DNA of 64,000 bases, taken from NCBI GenBank assembly GCA_016213325.1, contig JACRAY010000001.1:62001-126000 (forward strand), read 5' to 3'. The translations under genes and the position numbers were made by a program. Below, one piece after another: positions 33,081 through 62,092 of this stretch; the stretch's first letter is position 1, and each line of letters starts with the position of its first letter. Origin of the DNA: Burkholderiales bacterium (GTDB lineage: Bacteria > Pseudomonadota > Gammaproteobacteria > Burkholderiales > Burkholderiaceae_C). The notes under the pieces are model-generated. The model was not told the origin of the DNA, ran no database searches, and saw only the letters and a program-made list of their open reading frames with translations.

Positions 33081-34766
33081 ATGCCCCTGCCCCCCGCCCC
33101 GACCAAGCGTGCCGCCATGCTCCCGCCGGAAGCCTACGACGCCCCGGCCCGTTCATCGCACAAGGCCGCTCGAAAAACGGGGACCCGCACCGAGGAAAGC
33201 CCGGTCGCTGAAAGGCAGCCGCAGGCTGCCGACGACTTCGACCCGCGCTCCGGCGGCGGGCAGGCCGTGCACGGGTCGGGCTACGAGGAGAGCATCGAGA
33301 CCTGGCTGGACGAGCCCCAGCCTTCGCTGAAGAAGCGCGCTGCGGCCGCCACCAAGCCGCGCAAGGAAAAGTCCACCGGCCCGAAGAAGCTCTTCGTGAT
33401 GGACACCAACGTGCTGATGCACGACCCGATGAGCCTGTTCCGCTTCGAGGAACACGACATCTTCCTGCCGATGATCGTGCTGGAAGAGCTGGACGGCCAC
33501 AAGAAGGGCATGACCGAAGTCGCCCGCAACGCACGCCAGGCCAGCCGCATGCTGGACGCACTGGCCGGCACGCAGGGCGCCGACATCACCCACGGCCTCA
33601 ACCTGGACAGCACCGGGCACCGCGAAGCGACCGGCTGCCTGTTCTTCCAGACCATGCCGCTCGCCGTGGGCCTGCCGCCCGGGCTGCCGCAGGGCAAGGC
33701 CGACAACCAGATCCTGGCGGTGGTGCAGGCGCTGCGCGAGAAGCACACCCCGCGCGAAGTGGTGCTGGTGTCCAAGGACATCAACATGCGCGTCAAGGCG
33801 CGCGCGCTGGGTCTGGCCACCGACGACTACCAGAGCGACAAGACGCTCGACGACCTGGACCTGCTGTATTCGGGCTCGATGGCCCTGCCCACCGACTTCT
33901 GGGCCAAGCACGGCAAGACCATCGAAAGCTGGCAGACCGGCAGCCACACCTTCTACCGCATCACCGGGCCGGTGGTGCCCAGCCTGCTGATCAACCAGTT
34001 CGTGTACTTCGAGGCGCCCGGCGAGCCCAGCCTGTACGCGCGCGTCACCGAGATTCGCGGCAAGACCGCGGTGCTGAAGACGCTGAAGGACTACGGCCAC
34101 CTGAAGAACGCCGTGTGGGGCGTCACCACGCGCAACCGCGAGCAGAACTTCGCGATGAACCTGCTGATGGACCCGGAAGTGGACTTCGTCACGCTGACGG
34201 GCACGGCCGGCACCGGCAAGACGCTGATGGCGCTGGCCGCCGGGCTCACGCAGGTGCTGGACGACCGGCGCTACACCGAGATCATCATGACCCGCGCCAC
34301 CGTGAGCGTGGGCGAGGACATCGGCTTCCTGCCCGGCACCGAGGAGGAGAAGATGGGCCCGTGGATGGGTGCGCTGGACGACAACCTGGAAGTGCTGGGC
34401 AAGACCGACAGCGGCGCGGGCGAATGGGGGCGCGCCGCCACCAACGAGCTGATCCGCAGCCGCATCAAGATCAAGAGCATGAACTTCATGCGCGGCCGCA
34501 CGTTCCTCAACAAGTACGTGATCATCGACGAGGCGCAGAACCTCACGCCCAAGCAGATGAAGACGCTGATCACGCGCGCGGGGCCGGGCACCAAGATCAT
34601 CTGCATGGGCAACCTGGCGCAGATCGACACGCCCTACCTTACCGAAGGCTCATCGGGCCTGACTTTCGCCGTGGACAAGTTCAAAGGCTGGCCGCACAGC
34701 GGCCACATCACATTGGCGCGCGGGGAACGCTCTCGTCTGGCGGACTTTGCCAGCGAGGTGCTGTAG
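33081..34766 (+). CDS. PIN domain - PhoH family ATPase
   Basis: A 561-residue two-domain protein of the PhoH2/YlaK type. A low-complexity N-terminus (1-100) precedes a PIN nuclease domain (about 103-240) with Asp108 in VMDTNVLMHDP and EELDGHKKG. The PhoH ATPase domain then has Walker A GTAGTGKT near residue 375, MTRATVSVGEDIGFLPG and Walker B VIIDEAQNLTP. Homologues couple helicase and RNase activity. No Shine-Dalgarno is visible before the ATG; the next ATG is 12 codons on. The 3' end overlaps a convergent gene by 59 bases. Confidence 0.9.
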   Translation: MPLPPAPTKRAAMLPPEAYDAPARSSHKAARKTGTRTEESPVAERQPQAADDFDPRSGGGQAVHGSGYEESIETWLDEPQPSLKKRAAAATKPRKEKSTGPKKLFVMDTNVLMHDPMSLFRFEEHDIFLPMIVLEELDGHKKGMTEVARNARQASRMLDALAGTQGADITHGLNLDSTGHREATGCLFFQTMPLAVGLPPGLPQGKADNQILAVVQALREKHTPREVVLVSKDINMRVKARALGLATDDYQSDKTLDDLDLLYSGSMALPTDFWAKHGKTIESWQTGSHTFYRITGPVVPSLLINQFVYFEAPGEPSLYARVTEIRGKTAVLKTLKDYGHLKNAVWGVTTRNREQNFAMNLLMDPEVDFVTLTGTAGTGKTLMALAAGLTQVLDDRRYTEIIMTRATVSVGEDIGFLPGTEEEKMGPWMGALDDNLEVLGKTDSGAGEWGRAATNELIRSRIKIKSMNFMRGRTFLNKYVIIDEAQNLTPKQMKTLITRAGPGTKIICMGNLAQIDTPYLTEGSSGLTFAVDKFKGWPHSGHITLARGERSRLADFASEVL

Positions 34767-35096: not shown

Positions 35097-37460
35097 TCAG
35101 AAGTCGGTTCCGCCCGAAGCGAGGCTCTCGAACTTGGTCAGCGGTTTCAGGAAGGCGAGCTTGATGGTGCCGGTCGGGCCGTTACGCTGCTTGCCGATGA
35201 TGACTTCGGCCACGCCGGGCTCCTTGGAGTCCTTGTTGTAGTAGTCGTCGCGGTAGATGAACATGATGACGTCAGCGTCCTGCTCGATAGCTCCCGATTC
35301 ACGAAGGTCGCTCATCATCGGACGCTTGTCCGTGCGCGTCTCCACACCCCGGTTCAGCTGCGACAGCGCGATCACGGGGCACTGCAGCTCCTTGGCGAGC
35401 ATCTTCAGGCCGCGCGAAATCTCGCCCAGCTCGGTGGCGCGGTTCTCGTCGGCGCCGCCGCCCGAGCCGCTCATGAGCTGCAGGTAGTCGACCACGATCA
35501 GGCCGAGCTTGCCGCACTGGCGCGACAGGCGCCGCGCATTGGCGCGCAGCTCGCTGGGCGTGAGGCCCGGCGTTTCGTCGATGAACAGCGAGATGTTGCG
35601 CAGCTTCTCGATGGCTTCGGTCAGGCGCGGCCATTCGTCGTCGGTCAGCTTGCCGGTGCGCAGGTGGCCCTGGTCGATGCGGCCAATGGAGCCGACGATA
35701 CGCACGGCGAGCTGCGAGGCCCCCATTTCCATCGAGAACACGGCCACCGGCAGGCCCTCGTGCAGGGCGACGTGTTCGGCGATGTTGATGGCCAGCGAGG
35801 TGTTGTGGGTGACGACGTCCTGGTCGGTGATGTAGAGCTTGTCCGGGTGGCTCACGGCGATGCACTGGCATTGCGCCTGGCGCGTCGGGGTGATGGTCAC
35901 CACGTTCAATCGCCTCCGCTCTTGTGGGTTTTCGGAAAGGCTGATGTGACAGACGTACGCCGACAATCCCCCCACCTGCATCCCTGCAACGTTCATAACG
36001 TGCAACTGCTCGGTATGGATCGAGCACCAGCCACCCAGCGAGCGAACGAGTTCGGCCACGTCATCGGAAAGCTGCCGGCTCATAGTCGACAGTTCCGCGG
36101 CACTTCGCGGTTCTGCGCATTCATCGGAACCGAGCAAACCGCGCAGCAAGTCAACGCGGGCGGCGCGGTTCGCCTCGAGGTACAGGCGCGGGATAAACGT
36201 GCGGTCGCTCGGCAGGTCCAATAGGCCCAGACCTTCAAGTGCGACGCGCAGCAGATCAGGCTGCAGGCTCACTGTGACGTCTGCATGCACGACTTCCATG
36301 CCGTCGCCCACGCGCGCTCCCAGCGGCTGCAGGGCTTTCACGGAAGCGGCCGAGCACATCACGCTGCCGCTGCCACTGAGGCTTCCACTGCCCAGGAGCG
36401 CGCCAAGAACCCATGGGTCGACGGGCAACGGATCCTCGTGGCCGAACTCGCCGGTTGCCGGCTCGATCCAGACCCGGTTCTGGTAGCGCTTGCGCGCGAG
36501 CAATGCCTGCAGCTCCGATGTCTGGAGCACACGGGCTTCGGGCCAATGGCGGCAGTGCACTTTCCACAGGTGATCGGCGCAGCACTCTGCCGACCTGCCG
36601 TCGGAGAACGTGACGCGGAAGACCTGCTTCACTCCCTGGGGGTAGATGCCAGTGACGATCGAGGGGCGCCCGTCGACCGAAGCGACGGCATCGCCGACTT
36701 CCAGCTCGCCCATGGCTTTCCAGCCCGTCAGCGTGCGCACCTTGGCATCGACTGGCTGCGCCTTGCCCATGCTAGGCCGTGCCGCCAGCACGATCATGTC
36801 GCCCGCCTGCATGCCCGAAGTCATGCGATCGAGGTCGTAAAAGCCCGTCGGCACACCCGTGATGTCGTTCGGGTTGTCCGACATTTCCTGGACGCGATCG
36901 AGCAGTTCCACCACCAGGCTGTCCATGCCCTGGAAGCCCTGCTTCATCCGCGAGCCTTCCTCGCCGATGTTGAAGATCTTCTGCTCGGCCTCGTCGAGGA
37001 TCCTGTCCACCGCCTTGCCCTGCGGGTTGAAGGCGGCAGTGGCGATCTCGTCGGAAGCCGACACCAGCTTGCGCAGGATGCTGCGCTCGCGCACGATCTC
37101 GGCGTAGCGGCGGATGTTGCCCGCGCTCGGCACGTACTGGGCCAGCGAGTTCAGGTAGGCAAGCCCGCCCACCTCTTCGGCCTTGCCCAGGCTCTGGAGC
37201 TGTTCGAAGACCGTGATGACGTCGGCCGGCTTGGTCGCATTGATCAGGCCGCCGATGGCCGCGAAGATCAGCCGGTGCTCGTAGCGGTAGAAGTCGCTGT
37301 CGGTCAGCAGGTCGCCCATGCGGTCCCAGGCACCGTTGTCCAGCAGCAGGCCGCCCAGCACGCTGGACTCGGCTTCGATGGAATGCGGCGGGATGCGCAA
37401 CTGGGCAACCTGGCGGTCGCGCGGGAACTCGTCTTCGACTGGGGTGAGCACGGCTGACAT
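35097..37460 (-). CDS. dnaB: Replicative DNA helicase DnaB with in-frame intein
   Basis: Hexameric helicase that unwinds DNA at the replication fork. The frame codes 787 residues, about 320 more than DnaB usually has. Residues 1-233 (N-terminal domain, linker, start of the RecA fold) and 554-787 (Walker B VIVVDYLQLM-like, ALSQLNRGVE, DLRESGAIEQDAD) join to give a normal 467-residue helicase. The insert splits the Walker A motif, ARPSMGK before it and TSLAIN after it, so the unspliced protein cannot bind ATP properly. It is last in the rpsF-priB-rpsR-rplI-dnaB block, with a hairpin before it. Confidence 0.97.
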   Translation of the reverse strand: MSAVLTPVEDEFPRDRQVAQLRIPPHSIEAESSVLGGLLLDNGAWDRMGDLLTDSDFYRYEHRLIFAAIGGLINATKPADVITVFEQLQSLGKAEEVGGLAYLNSLAQYVPSAGNIRRYAEIVRERSILRKLVSASDEIATAAFNPQGKAVDRILDEAEQKIFNIGEEGSRMKQGFQGMDSLVVELLDRVQEMSDNPNDITGVPTGFYDLDRMTSGMQAGDMIVLAARPSMGKAQPVDAKVRTLTGWKAMGELEVGDAVASVDGRPSIVTGIYPQGVKQVFRVTFSDGRSAECCADHLWKVHCRHWPEARVLQTSELQALLARKRYQNRVWIEPATGEFGHEDPLPVDPWVLGALLGSGSLSGSGSVMCSAASVKALQPLGARVGDGMEVVHADVTVSLQPDLLRVALEGLGLLDLPSDRTFIPRLYLEANRAARVDLLRGLLGSDECAEPRSAAELSTMSRQLSDDVAELVRSLGGWCSIHTEQLHVMNVAGMQVGGLSAYVCHISLSENPQERRRLNVVTITPTRQAQCQCIAVSHPDKLYITDQDVVTHNTSLAINIAEHVALHEGLPVAVFSMEMGASQLAVRIVGSIGRIDQGHLRTGKLTDDEWPRLTEAIEKLRNISLFIDETPGLTPSELRANARRLSRQCGKLGLIVVDYLQLMSGSGGGADENRATELGEISRGLKMLAKELQCPVIALSQLNRGVETRTDKRPMMSDLRESGAIEQDADVIMFIYRDDYYNKDSKEPGVAEVIIGKQRNGPTGTIKLAFLKPLTKFESLASGGTDF
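35802..36761 (-). mobile_element. Class 3-type intein in DnaB Walker A (DnaB-b site) with decayed LAGLIDADG endonuclease
   Basis: A 320-residue intein begins Ala-Gln-Pro after GK and ends Val-Thr-His-Asn before Thr. There is no Cys/Ser/Thr at position 1, as in class 1. Instead it has Trp66 in ADHLW (block B), Cys300 in CIAVSHPDKLYITD (block F) and Thr318 before His319-Asn320: the W-C-T triplet that defines class 3 inteins. The first host residue after it is Thr. An endonuclease domain lies at about residues 110-250: motif 1 VLGALLGSG has Ser125 in place of the catalytic Asp, motif 2 LRGLLGSDE keeps Asp213. Splicing looks intact and homing looks lost. Confidence 0.9.
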
Positions 37461-59821: not shown

Positions 59822-62092
59822 TTGGCGCCCAAAGCCCCCCGTTCGTCGTCCCCTAACGCGCTGCTCCCGCTGGGCGCAGCCATGCTCGCTGCATCTTTCG
59901 GCAGCTGGGCGCAGACCCCGCCCGTGGTCGTGCTCCAGCAAGTCGTGGTGAAGGGCAAGGCAGAAGCGCCCGATGGCAAGGACGCGCTGCGCACGACCAC
60001 CACGAACATCGGCAAGGGCACGCAGCAGCTGCGCGACATCCCGCAGTCGATCACCGTGGTCACCGAGAAATTGATGGACGACCGCAACCTCGACACCGTC
60101 AAGGACGCGTTGCGCAACACTTCGGGCATCACCTTCCTCGCGGGCGAGGGGGGCGAAGAAGACATACGCCTGCGCGGCTACTCGCTGGCCGGCACGGGGG
60201 ACATCTTCCTCGACGGCATGCGCGACCCGGCCTTCTACGACCGCGACACATTCAACCAGGACCGGCTCGAAGTGCTGCGCGGCTCGGCGTCGATGCTGTT
60301 CGGCCGCGGCTCGACCGGAGGTGCCGTCAACCAGGTGAGCAAGGCGCCGCGGCTGATGGACCAGCACGAAGTGACGGGCACCGCCGGCAGCCACAACTAC
60401 TGGCGCGTCACCGGCGACTTCAACATCCACACGGGCGAGAACGCGGCGGTCCGAATCAACGCGATGGGCACGAAGGCCGACAACAACGGCTCGGGGAGCA
60501 GCATCGACAAGAAGGGCATCGCGGCCGCCTACCGGTGGGGCATCGGCACGGCCGACGAGTTCATGGCGGGCCTCTTCCACCTGGAAAACCGCAACGGCAT
60601 CAACTACGGGCTGCCGTGGCTGCGCCCTTCGGGCACGCACACGACGGCGTCCAACACGATCATCGGCAGCCTGAAGCCCACGGACTACTACGGCCTGGCG
60701 AGCGACCGCAACAACGGGTCGGCCAGCCTGGCGACCTTCAGCCACGTCCACCGCTTCGGCGACGGCAGCGAACTCAAGTCGCAGGTGCGCAAGGGCGTGT
60801 TCGACCGCGACCAGCGCGCCAGCCCGATCCGCGTGGCGGCCGGCACCAACCTCACCAACTTCGGGCCCGGCACCGTATTCACTCGCGGCGGGCCCAACGG
60901 CACGCTGAAGATCCAGGACGTGGAGGTGCTGCAGGCCCAGGGCGACTACTCGACGAAGTTCCAGGCCTGGGGCGCGCAGCACGAGCTGCAGGCCGGCATC
61001 GACTACTCGCGCGAAGTGAAGACCGTGTTTGCCGCGCGTACGGCGGCACAGGGCGGCGTGGAGCTCCCCAAGCCGACCACGTTGGCGGGCACGCCGCATG
61101 ACGGCGCATCGATCGACGAGGCGCAGCGCTTGCTGCGCATCGCAAGCGACTTCGAGGCGAAGTCCGTCAGTGCCTACCTGCAGGACACGATGCAACTGGC
61201 GCCGGCCTGGAAGCTGGTAGCGGGGCTCCGCTACGACCGCATGGCCGGCGTGTACGACTGCTTCAGCATCCCCGGCGGCGCGCCGGGCTGCGGCCTGCCC
61301 GGCACGCCGCAGGTGAGCGTGCCGACCACGACGACCTACCGCCAGAAGATCGCCGAATGGAGCAAGCGGGCCGGCGTGCTGTACCAGCCGAACGACCGGT
61401 ACTCGTTCCACTTCTCGTACGGCACCTCGTTCAACACCTCCGGCGACACGTACTCGTACAACCCGCAGAGCGCCAACACGCCGCCGGAGCAAAGCGAGAA
61501 CATCGAGCTGGGCGGCCGGATCGACACCGCAGACAAGCGGTTCACGACGCGTTTCGCCCTGTTCCGCTCGACCAAGAAAAACGAGCGCAATGCGGACCCC
61601 GACACGGCTGCCACGCGCCTGCTGCTGTCCGGCAAGCGCCACACCGCGGGCGTTGAATTGGACCTCACCGGGCGCCTCACGCCGAGGTGGGAGGTGTTCG
61701 GCTCGTACATGTGGATGCCGATCGCGCGCGTCGATGAAGCGGCGTCGACTGCCACCTCTGTCGGCAACCGCGTCGGCGACCGGCCCGGCCTCACGCCCAG
61801 ACACAGCGGCACGATCTGGAGCACCTACCAGGTCACACCGAAGTGGCGCGTCGGCGGCGGCCTCAACTTCCGCAGCAAGCAGGCGCCCGCCGATGTGACG
61901 GCACCGGCCTGGGAAGCACCGGGCTTCGTGACGGCGGACCTGATGGCCGAGTACCTCGTCAACGACACCATCACCCTGAAGGCCAACCTCAGCAACGTGG
62001 GCGACAAGCTCTTCGGCGAGTCGCTCTATCGGGGGCATTACATCCCCGGGGCCGGGCGCCTGCTGCAGGTGTCGCTGGGCGCGCGCTTCTGA
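59822..62092 (+). CDS. TonB-dependent siderophore receptor (catecholate type)
   Basis: An outer-membrane gated channel for ferric siderophores, 756 residues. A signal peptide ([16 protein letters not shown]) precedes the TonB-box region and plug: [40 protein letters not shown] and [26 protein letters not shown]. The 22-strand barrel ends with the required terminal Phe (VSLGARF). Pattern and PiuC partner point to a Fiu/PiuA-like catecholate receptor. Start is TTG with GGAGG five bases upstream; the next Met would cut into the signal peptide. Confidence 0.94.

Follow-up and report, generated by a model that had tools for sequence, protein, structure and literature searches.

A class 3 intein in the P-loop of DnaB

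The gene for the replicative DNA helicase, dnaB, is interrupted by an intein in a stretch of DNA from a Burkholderiales bacterium (64,000 nucleotides, hereafter the window; positions 62,001 to 126,000 of contig JACRAY010000001.1, assembly GCA_016213325.1). The insert of 320 amino acids (aa; 34.7 kDa) is in frame, spans residues 234–553 of the dnaB product and lies within the P-loop, at the junction ARPSMGK/TSLAINIA. The DnaB N-terminal domain and DnaB_C of Pfam are found on either side of it, with DnaB_C restarting at residue 553. The features collected in Table 1 very probably describe an intein of class 3, inserted at the DnaB-b (P-loop) site, that remains capable of splicing and whose homing endonuclease is lost or being lost. 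An earlier note, made from the sequence alone, had recognized the insert; its coordinates, frame, length, 467-aa extein and the residues Ala1, Trp66, Cys300, Thr318, His319, Asn320 and Thr+1 all proved correct.

Table 1. Features of dnaB and its intein (plus-strand coordinates of the window)
Feature	Coordinates	Strand	Remarks
dnaB, replicative DNA helicase	35097..37460	-	787 aa with intein, 467 aa without
N-extein residue -1, Walker A lysine (ARPSMGK)	36762..36764	-	
Class 3 intein, Ala1 to Asn320	35802..36761	-	320 aa
Hint splicing domain, N-terminal part, residues 1-105	36447..36761	-	boundary approximate
Cys61, block B position 7 (CxxH replacing TxxH or DxxH)	36579..36581	-	120/120 listed homologs
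His64, block B position 10	36570-36572	-	
Trp66, block B position 12 (W of WCT)	36564..36566	-	invariant; codon position rechecked
Degenerate LAGLIDADG homing endonuclease domain, residues 106-283	35913..36446	-	boundary approximate
LAGLIDADG motif 1 remnant VLGALLGSGS	36381..36410	-	catalytic Asp position 125 = Ser
15-codon deletion versus family, between residues 162 and 163	36275..36276	-	alignment
LAGLIDADG motif 2 remnant LRGLLGSDEC (family LRGLLDTDGW)	36117..36146	-	D211G, G214E, Asp213 retained
16-codon deletion versus family, between residues 277 and 278	35930..35931	-	alignment
Hint splicing domain, C-terminal part, residues 284-320	35802..35912	-	boundary approximate
Cys298	35868-35870	-	present in 46/83 bacterial inteins
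Cys300, block F position 4, predicted initiating nucleophile	35862..35864	-	120/120 listed homologs, 106/106 inteins
Thr318-His319-Asn320, block G positions 5-7	35802..35810	-	106/106 inteins
C-extein +1 Thr, Walker A Thr, putative second branch point	35799..35801	-	

Comparisons relied on the best 120 of 1006 protein homologs, the window's own protein (P0001) included, and on the best 80 of 203 relatives on genome contigs. Inteins were extracted with a hidden Markov model. The 138 full-length copies gave 108 distinct sequences and, after removal of two from terminase-like genes (L006 and L007), 106 inteins (83 bacterial and 23 viral). Partial or frame-broken copies (L055, L113/L167, L168/L170) and a weak one (L169) had been excluded earlier. 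One copy, L145, is counted among the 106 despite a mis-set start (its apparent Pro at position 1 is an artefact) and was left out of the 107-row tree.

Class 3 inteins are defined by Trp at block B position 12 (B:12), Cys at F:4 and Thr at G:5 (PMC5222942). W66, C300 and T318 occupy these positions and are invariant across the 106 inteins. Position 1, where neither Cys, Ser nor Thr is found, is Ala in the window and in 120/120 listed homologs. His64 at B:10, the penultimate His319, the terminal Asn320 and Thr+1 are those required of the class, and the predicted structure model adopts the Hint fold (a first version from 9 sequences, with a predicted local distance difference test score of 73.2, was replaced by a later one). 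Invariant signature residues and the modelled fold support the class 3 assignment proposed in the earlier note. The hydroxyl residue of the interrupted P-loop serves as +1, corresponding to site b in DnaB of Mycobacterium smegmatis (PMC6195587). The insert is not a product of chance: all 120 listed homologs have one of 320–354 aa at the same place, beginning with Ala and ending with THN, and 26 of the 30 dnaB loci retrieved from the same genus are uninterrupted, with a continuous GK/T.

A decaying homing endonuclease

The central part of the intein is a LAGLIDADG endonuclease domain, on which the earlier note was silent. Active enzymes have two catalytic Asp, one per motif. In the window, Ser occupies position 125 of motif 1 (family consensus VLGALLGDG, with Asp in 117/120 listed homologs), and Asp213 is the sole catalytic Asp. 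Both Asp columns are intact in 77/83 bacterial inteins, with the window among the remaining six; one catalytic Asp is absent in 6/83 bacterial inteins and 5/120 listed homologs, both counts including the window. In addition, 31 residues have been deleted from the domain. Bacterial inteins are 346–352 aa long in 80 of 83 cases, the exceptions being the window copy (320 aa), L103 (299 aa) and L107 (300 aa).

Changes are concentrated in the endonuclease. Among columns at least 95% conserved in the other 119 listed homologs, the window intein is altered at 21 of 69 in the endonuclease versus 2 of 64 in the splicing domain (Fisher p 1.9e-5). This is the highest number of endonuclease departures among the 120 listed homologs, the runner-up having 11. 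Relative-rate comparisons agree: the window endonuclease accumulated 33–41 changes versus 8–15 (p <=0.008 in each of six comparisons) and the splicing domain showed no excess (p >=0.248 in each), although the six comparisons use three Ramlibacter relatives with shared sequences and are hence non-independent. Restricting the tree to splicing columns shortens the terminal branch of the window intein from 0.57 (median 0.19) to 0.17 (median 0.14). Collectively, this pattern suggests that the window intein has lost its homing ability.

Several observations weigh against a splicing intein with a decayed endonuclease. Asp213 is retained in the endonuclease, and two conserved columns are altered in the splicing domain. 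The extein control of the relative-rate analysis was uneven in two of six comparisons, the window being slower once (14 versus 33) and faster once (24 versus 11). Ratios of non-synonymous to synonymous substitution in the endonuclease (dN/dS, NG86 method) are 0.18–0.30 in pairs with the window versus 0.15–0.27 in other pairs, far below 1; being barely raised, they point to recent or partial decay. Sequencing error is possible, though the reading frame of the intein has neither frameshift nor stop. Finally, the support for splicing comes from sequence and a structure model.

Relatives, distribution and origin

The closest named relatives among the listed matches are from Ramlibacter, and on that basis the host probably belongs to this genus. 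The nearest inteins are bacterial dnaB inteins. Those of proteobacteria (Ramlibacter cellulosilyticus, R. albus, Polynucleobacter, Burkholderia and others; 44–70% identity) share site, family and all splicing residues with the window copy, but are mostly longer and mostly have both catalytic Asp. No literature on Ramlibacter inteins or Burkholderiales DnaB inteins was found in open-access PMC. A dnaB intein occurs in 4 of 37 same-genus genomes, the window's own included (G000, G010, G015 and G019), dnaB having been located in 34 of the 37. In a same-family sample, matches were found in 25/399 genomes; the match in G230 has a broken frame, and that in G242 is weak and lies in another kind of protein.

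Host and intein histories conflict. A constraint that groups the exteins of the four Ramlibacter dnaB genes with an intein is rejected (approximately unbiased (AU) test, p-AU 7.2e-10; 30 rows), whereas the same constraint on their inteins is compatible with the data (p 0.28; 33 of 107 rows). Either the inteins were transferred inside the genus or close to it, or they were lost many times. Only these AU tests were used, since the extein tree is poorly resolved: 7/28 inner branches are starred, and presence of the intein requires 5 changes versus a shuffled mean of 4.8, i.e. clustering does not exceed that of shuffled labels. Synonymous divergence (dS) among the four inteins is higher in the splicing domain (0.84–2.06) than in the exteins (0.44–0.57). 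Separate arrival was considered on this ground and is not relied on, as codon bias differs (G+C at third codon positions 0.79 versus 0.90).

The earlier note asked whether a tree would point to a phage source. In the intein tree (107 rows, long branches, rooted on L006/L007), bacterial dnaB inteins are nested inside viral ones, and a phage DnaB intein (L040), whose gene has repressor and O-like initiator genes in its neighbourhood, nests among the bacterial copies. An old phage reservoir fits this tree, but the nearest relatives of the window intein are bacterial dnaB inteins, with up to 70% identity. Viral contig inteins share 27–47% identity with the window intein and mostly lie in other host genes. 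Among phage records, 523/50,697 match, all below 60% identity, the best of the 30 listed reaching 36%. Most of the 23 viral relatives (within L040–L065) interrupt Walker A-like motifs, in proteins of several kinds. As scored by eye, the residue before the intein is Lys (21 cases) or Arg (2 cases), and +1 is Thr (22 cases) or Ser (1 case). Both catalytic Asp columns hold Asp in 20/23. A phage origin of class 3 inteins was reportedly proposed by Tori and Perler in 2011. The preference for P-loops and the sharing between phages and hosts are already published (PMC5050341), and phage members such as those of mycobacteriophage Bethlehem DnaB (PMC3196547) and TerL (PMC5050341) have the same signature as the window intein.

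Further class 3 inteins were seen among these relatives. A viral P-loop protein (L064/L065, 5001–5414; AGILSPGTGK/T) carries a 138-aa mini-intein without endonuclease. In a same-genus genome, the two genes that gave L006 and L007 (G030:C27), recognized by eye from sequence as encoding terminase-like large subunits, each contain a class 3 intein with DxxH in block B.

Splicing, possible redox control and alternative explanations

The 787-aa precursor, with its Walker A motif split, should be inactive as a helicase. By analogy with the chemistry established in other class 3 inteins, Cys300 would attack the Lys–Ala1 peptide bond to give a branched thioester, the N-extein would pass to Thr+1, and cyclization of Asn320 would release a seamless 467-aa helicase with GKT intact. 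A single gene passes the DnaB_C cut-off in this genome (99.95% complete; two weak matches on other contigs fall below it), so replication probably depends on splicing, as the earlier note had argued, and splicing would be essential to the host. The retained splicing residues suggest that the window intein splices in vivo. After decay of its endonuclease, the intein would now be trapped in dnaB and retained because precise loss is rare.

An Ala at position 1 might also mark a class 1 intein whose nucleophile decayed, so that the normal route of splicing is gone, which is one of the two findings that the earlier note named as overturning its reading. Ala1 occurs together with W66, C300 and T318 throughout the 120 listed homologs, and the host gene alone passes the DnaB_C cut-off; class 1 origin was rejected on the first of these grounds and has practically no probability left. 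The conflict between host and intein trees and the two Asp columns kept by most bacterial inteins would suit a fully mobile element with a working endonuclease, spreading between dnaB alleles. The window copy itself fits this poorly, lacking Asp125, carrying D211G and G214E, having lost 31 residues and being altered at 21 of 69 conserved endonuclease columns, and full mobility is very improbable. PI-SceI, the VMA intein, has a working endonuclease and the class 1 splicing route; it also differs from the window intein in host gene.

Regulation deserves more weight, although it too is unlikely. The earlier note suggested that redox or metal effects on Cys300 gate the helicase; acting with Cys61 or Cys298, they could gate replication as well, and such a use could have preserved the intein after loss of homing. 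H2O2 links the nucleophile Cys118 of M. smegmatis DnaBi1, at the identical DnaB site, to Cys48 as a disulphide, and Cys118 binds zinc (PMC6195587, PMC7360933). Cys61 is found in 83/83 bacterial (and 5/23 viral) inteins. However, Cys48 aligns with Val47 of the window intein (Val in 118/120 listed homologs), so the partner of the M. smegmatis switch is missing; a Cys nucleophile is oxidizable in every class 3 intein; and 33/37 same-genus genomes in which no dnaB intein was seen argue against a general need for it in the genus. Such gating may still act through Cys61 or Cys298.

Other differences set these systems apart. The mycobacterial DnaB-b class 3 inteins compared (M. smegmatis DnaBi1, 6bs8; M. 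chimaera, 6rix and 6riy; M. leprae) are 26–28% identical to the window intein. DnaBi1, a mini-intein, lacks an endonuclease and has Ser at +1 and DxxH in block B (PMC6195587), whereas the window intein has Thr at +1, CxxH and a degenerate endonuclease. Position B:7 is generally unconserved in class 3 inteins, the characterized examples having Gly or Asp, and in another member a Ser at B:7 is close enough to the N-scissile bond for hydrogen bonding (PMC7891396). For the proteobacterial DnaB clade, a C61–C300 thiol pair is a fair hypothesis from sequence. It is tempting, if rather speculative, to propose that the two residues act as an intrinsic switch, through a disulphide or a metal, or that C61 aids the first acyl transfer, leaving the host with an immobile replication switch once the endonuclease decayed.

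As a splicing intein with a decaying endonuclease, the window copy would represent a snapshot of the homing cycle, in which the splicing domain is retained in the single gene over the DnaB_C cut-off. The invariant Cys at B:7 of its clade offers a structural contrast, open to testing, with the mycobacterial class 3 inteins used in the redox and zinc studies cited here. Otherwise it is one more example of a large known family, with 1701 class 3 inteins catalogued, 82.5% of them with LAGLIDADG motifs (PMC7891396).

Further inteins and genomic context

A same-family metagenome-assembled genome (83% complete) has a dnaB intein (L170, G230:C24, 1501–2465) that lacks ∼30 codons around motif 1 and whose frame is broken there. 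The TGA of the N-part overlaps a GTG of the C-part frame, and no second gene that passes the DnaB_C cut-off was found in the genome. An assembly error or a frameshift may explain the break, or the gene may be fractured and its class 3 intein naturally split; split class 3 inteins are described as very rare (PMC7891396). In five other relatives (L073, L082, L096, L101 and L122), the dnaB frame continues beyond the intein into a second, weaker intein-profile match. Eight listed homologs longer than 960 aa also match the Pfam profile Intein_splicing (PF14890). This profile has no match across the window's genome and also misses the dnaB intein, so the scan is uninformative on other inteins.

Scans of the window for Rfam families and tRNAs gave no match. 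The neighbours of dnaB are the genes for bL9, bS18, an SSB-type protein (probably PriB, judging from its position) and bS6, which points to a chromosomal rather than a prophage setting. A gene for a PIN-PhoH protein (33081–34766, plus strand) also adjoins dnaB, and its P-loop is uninterrupted.
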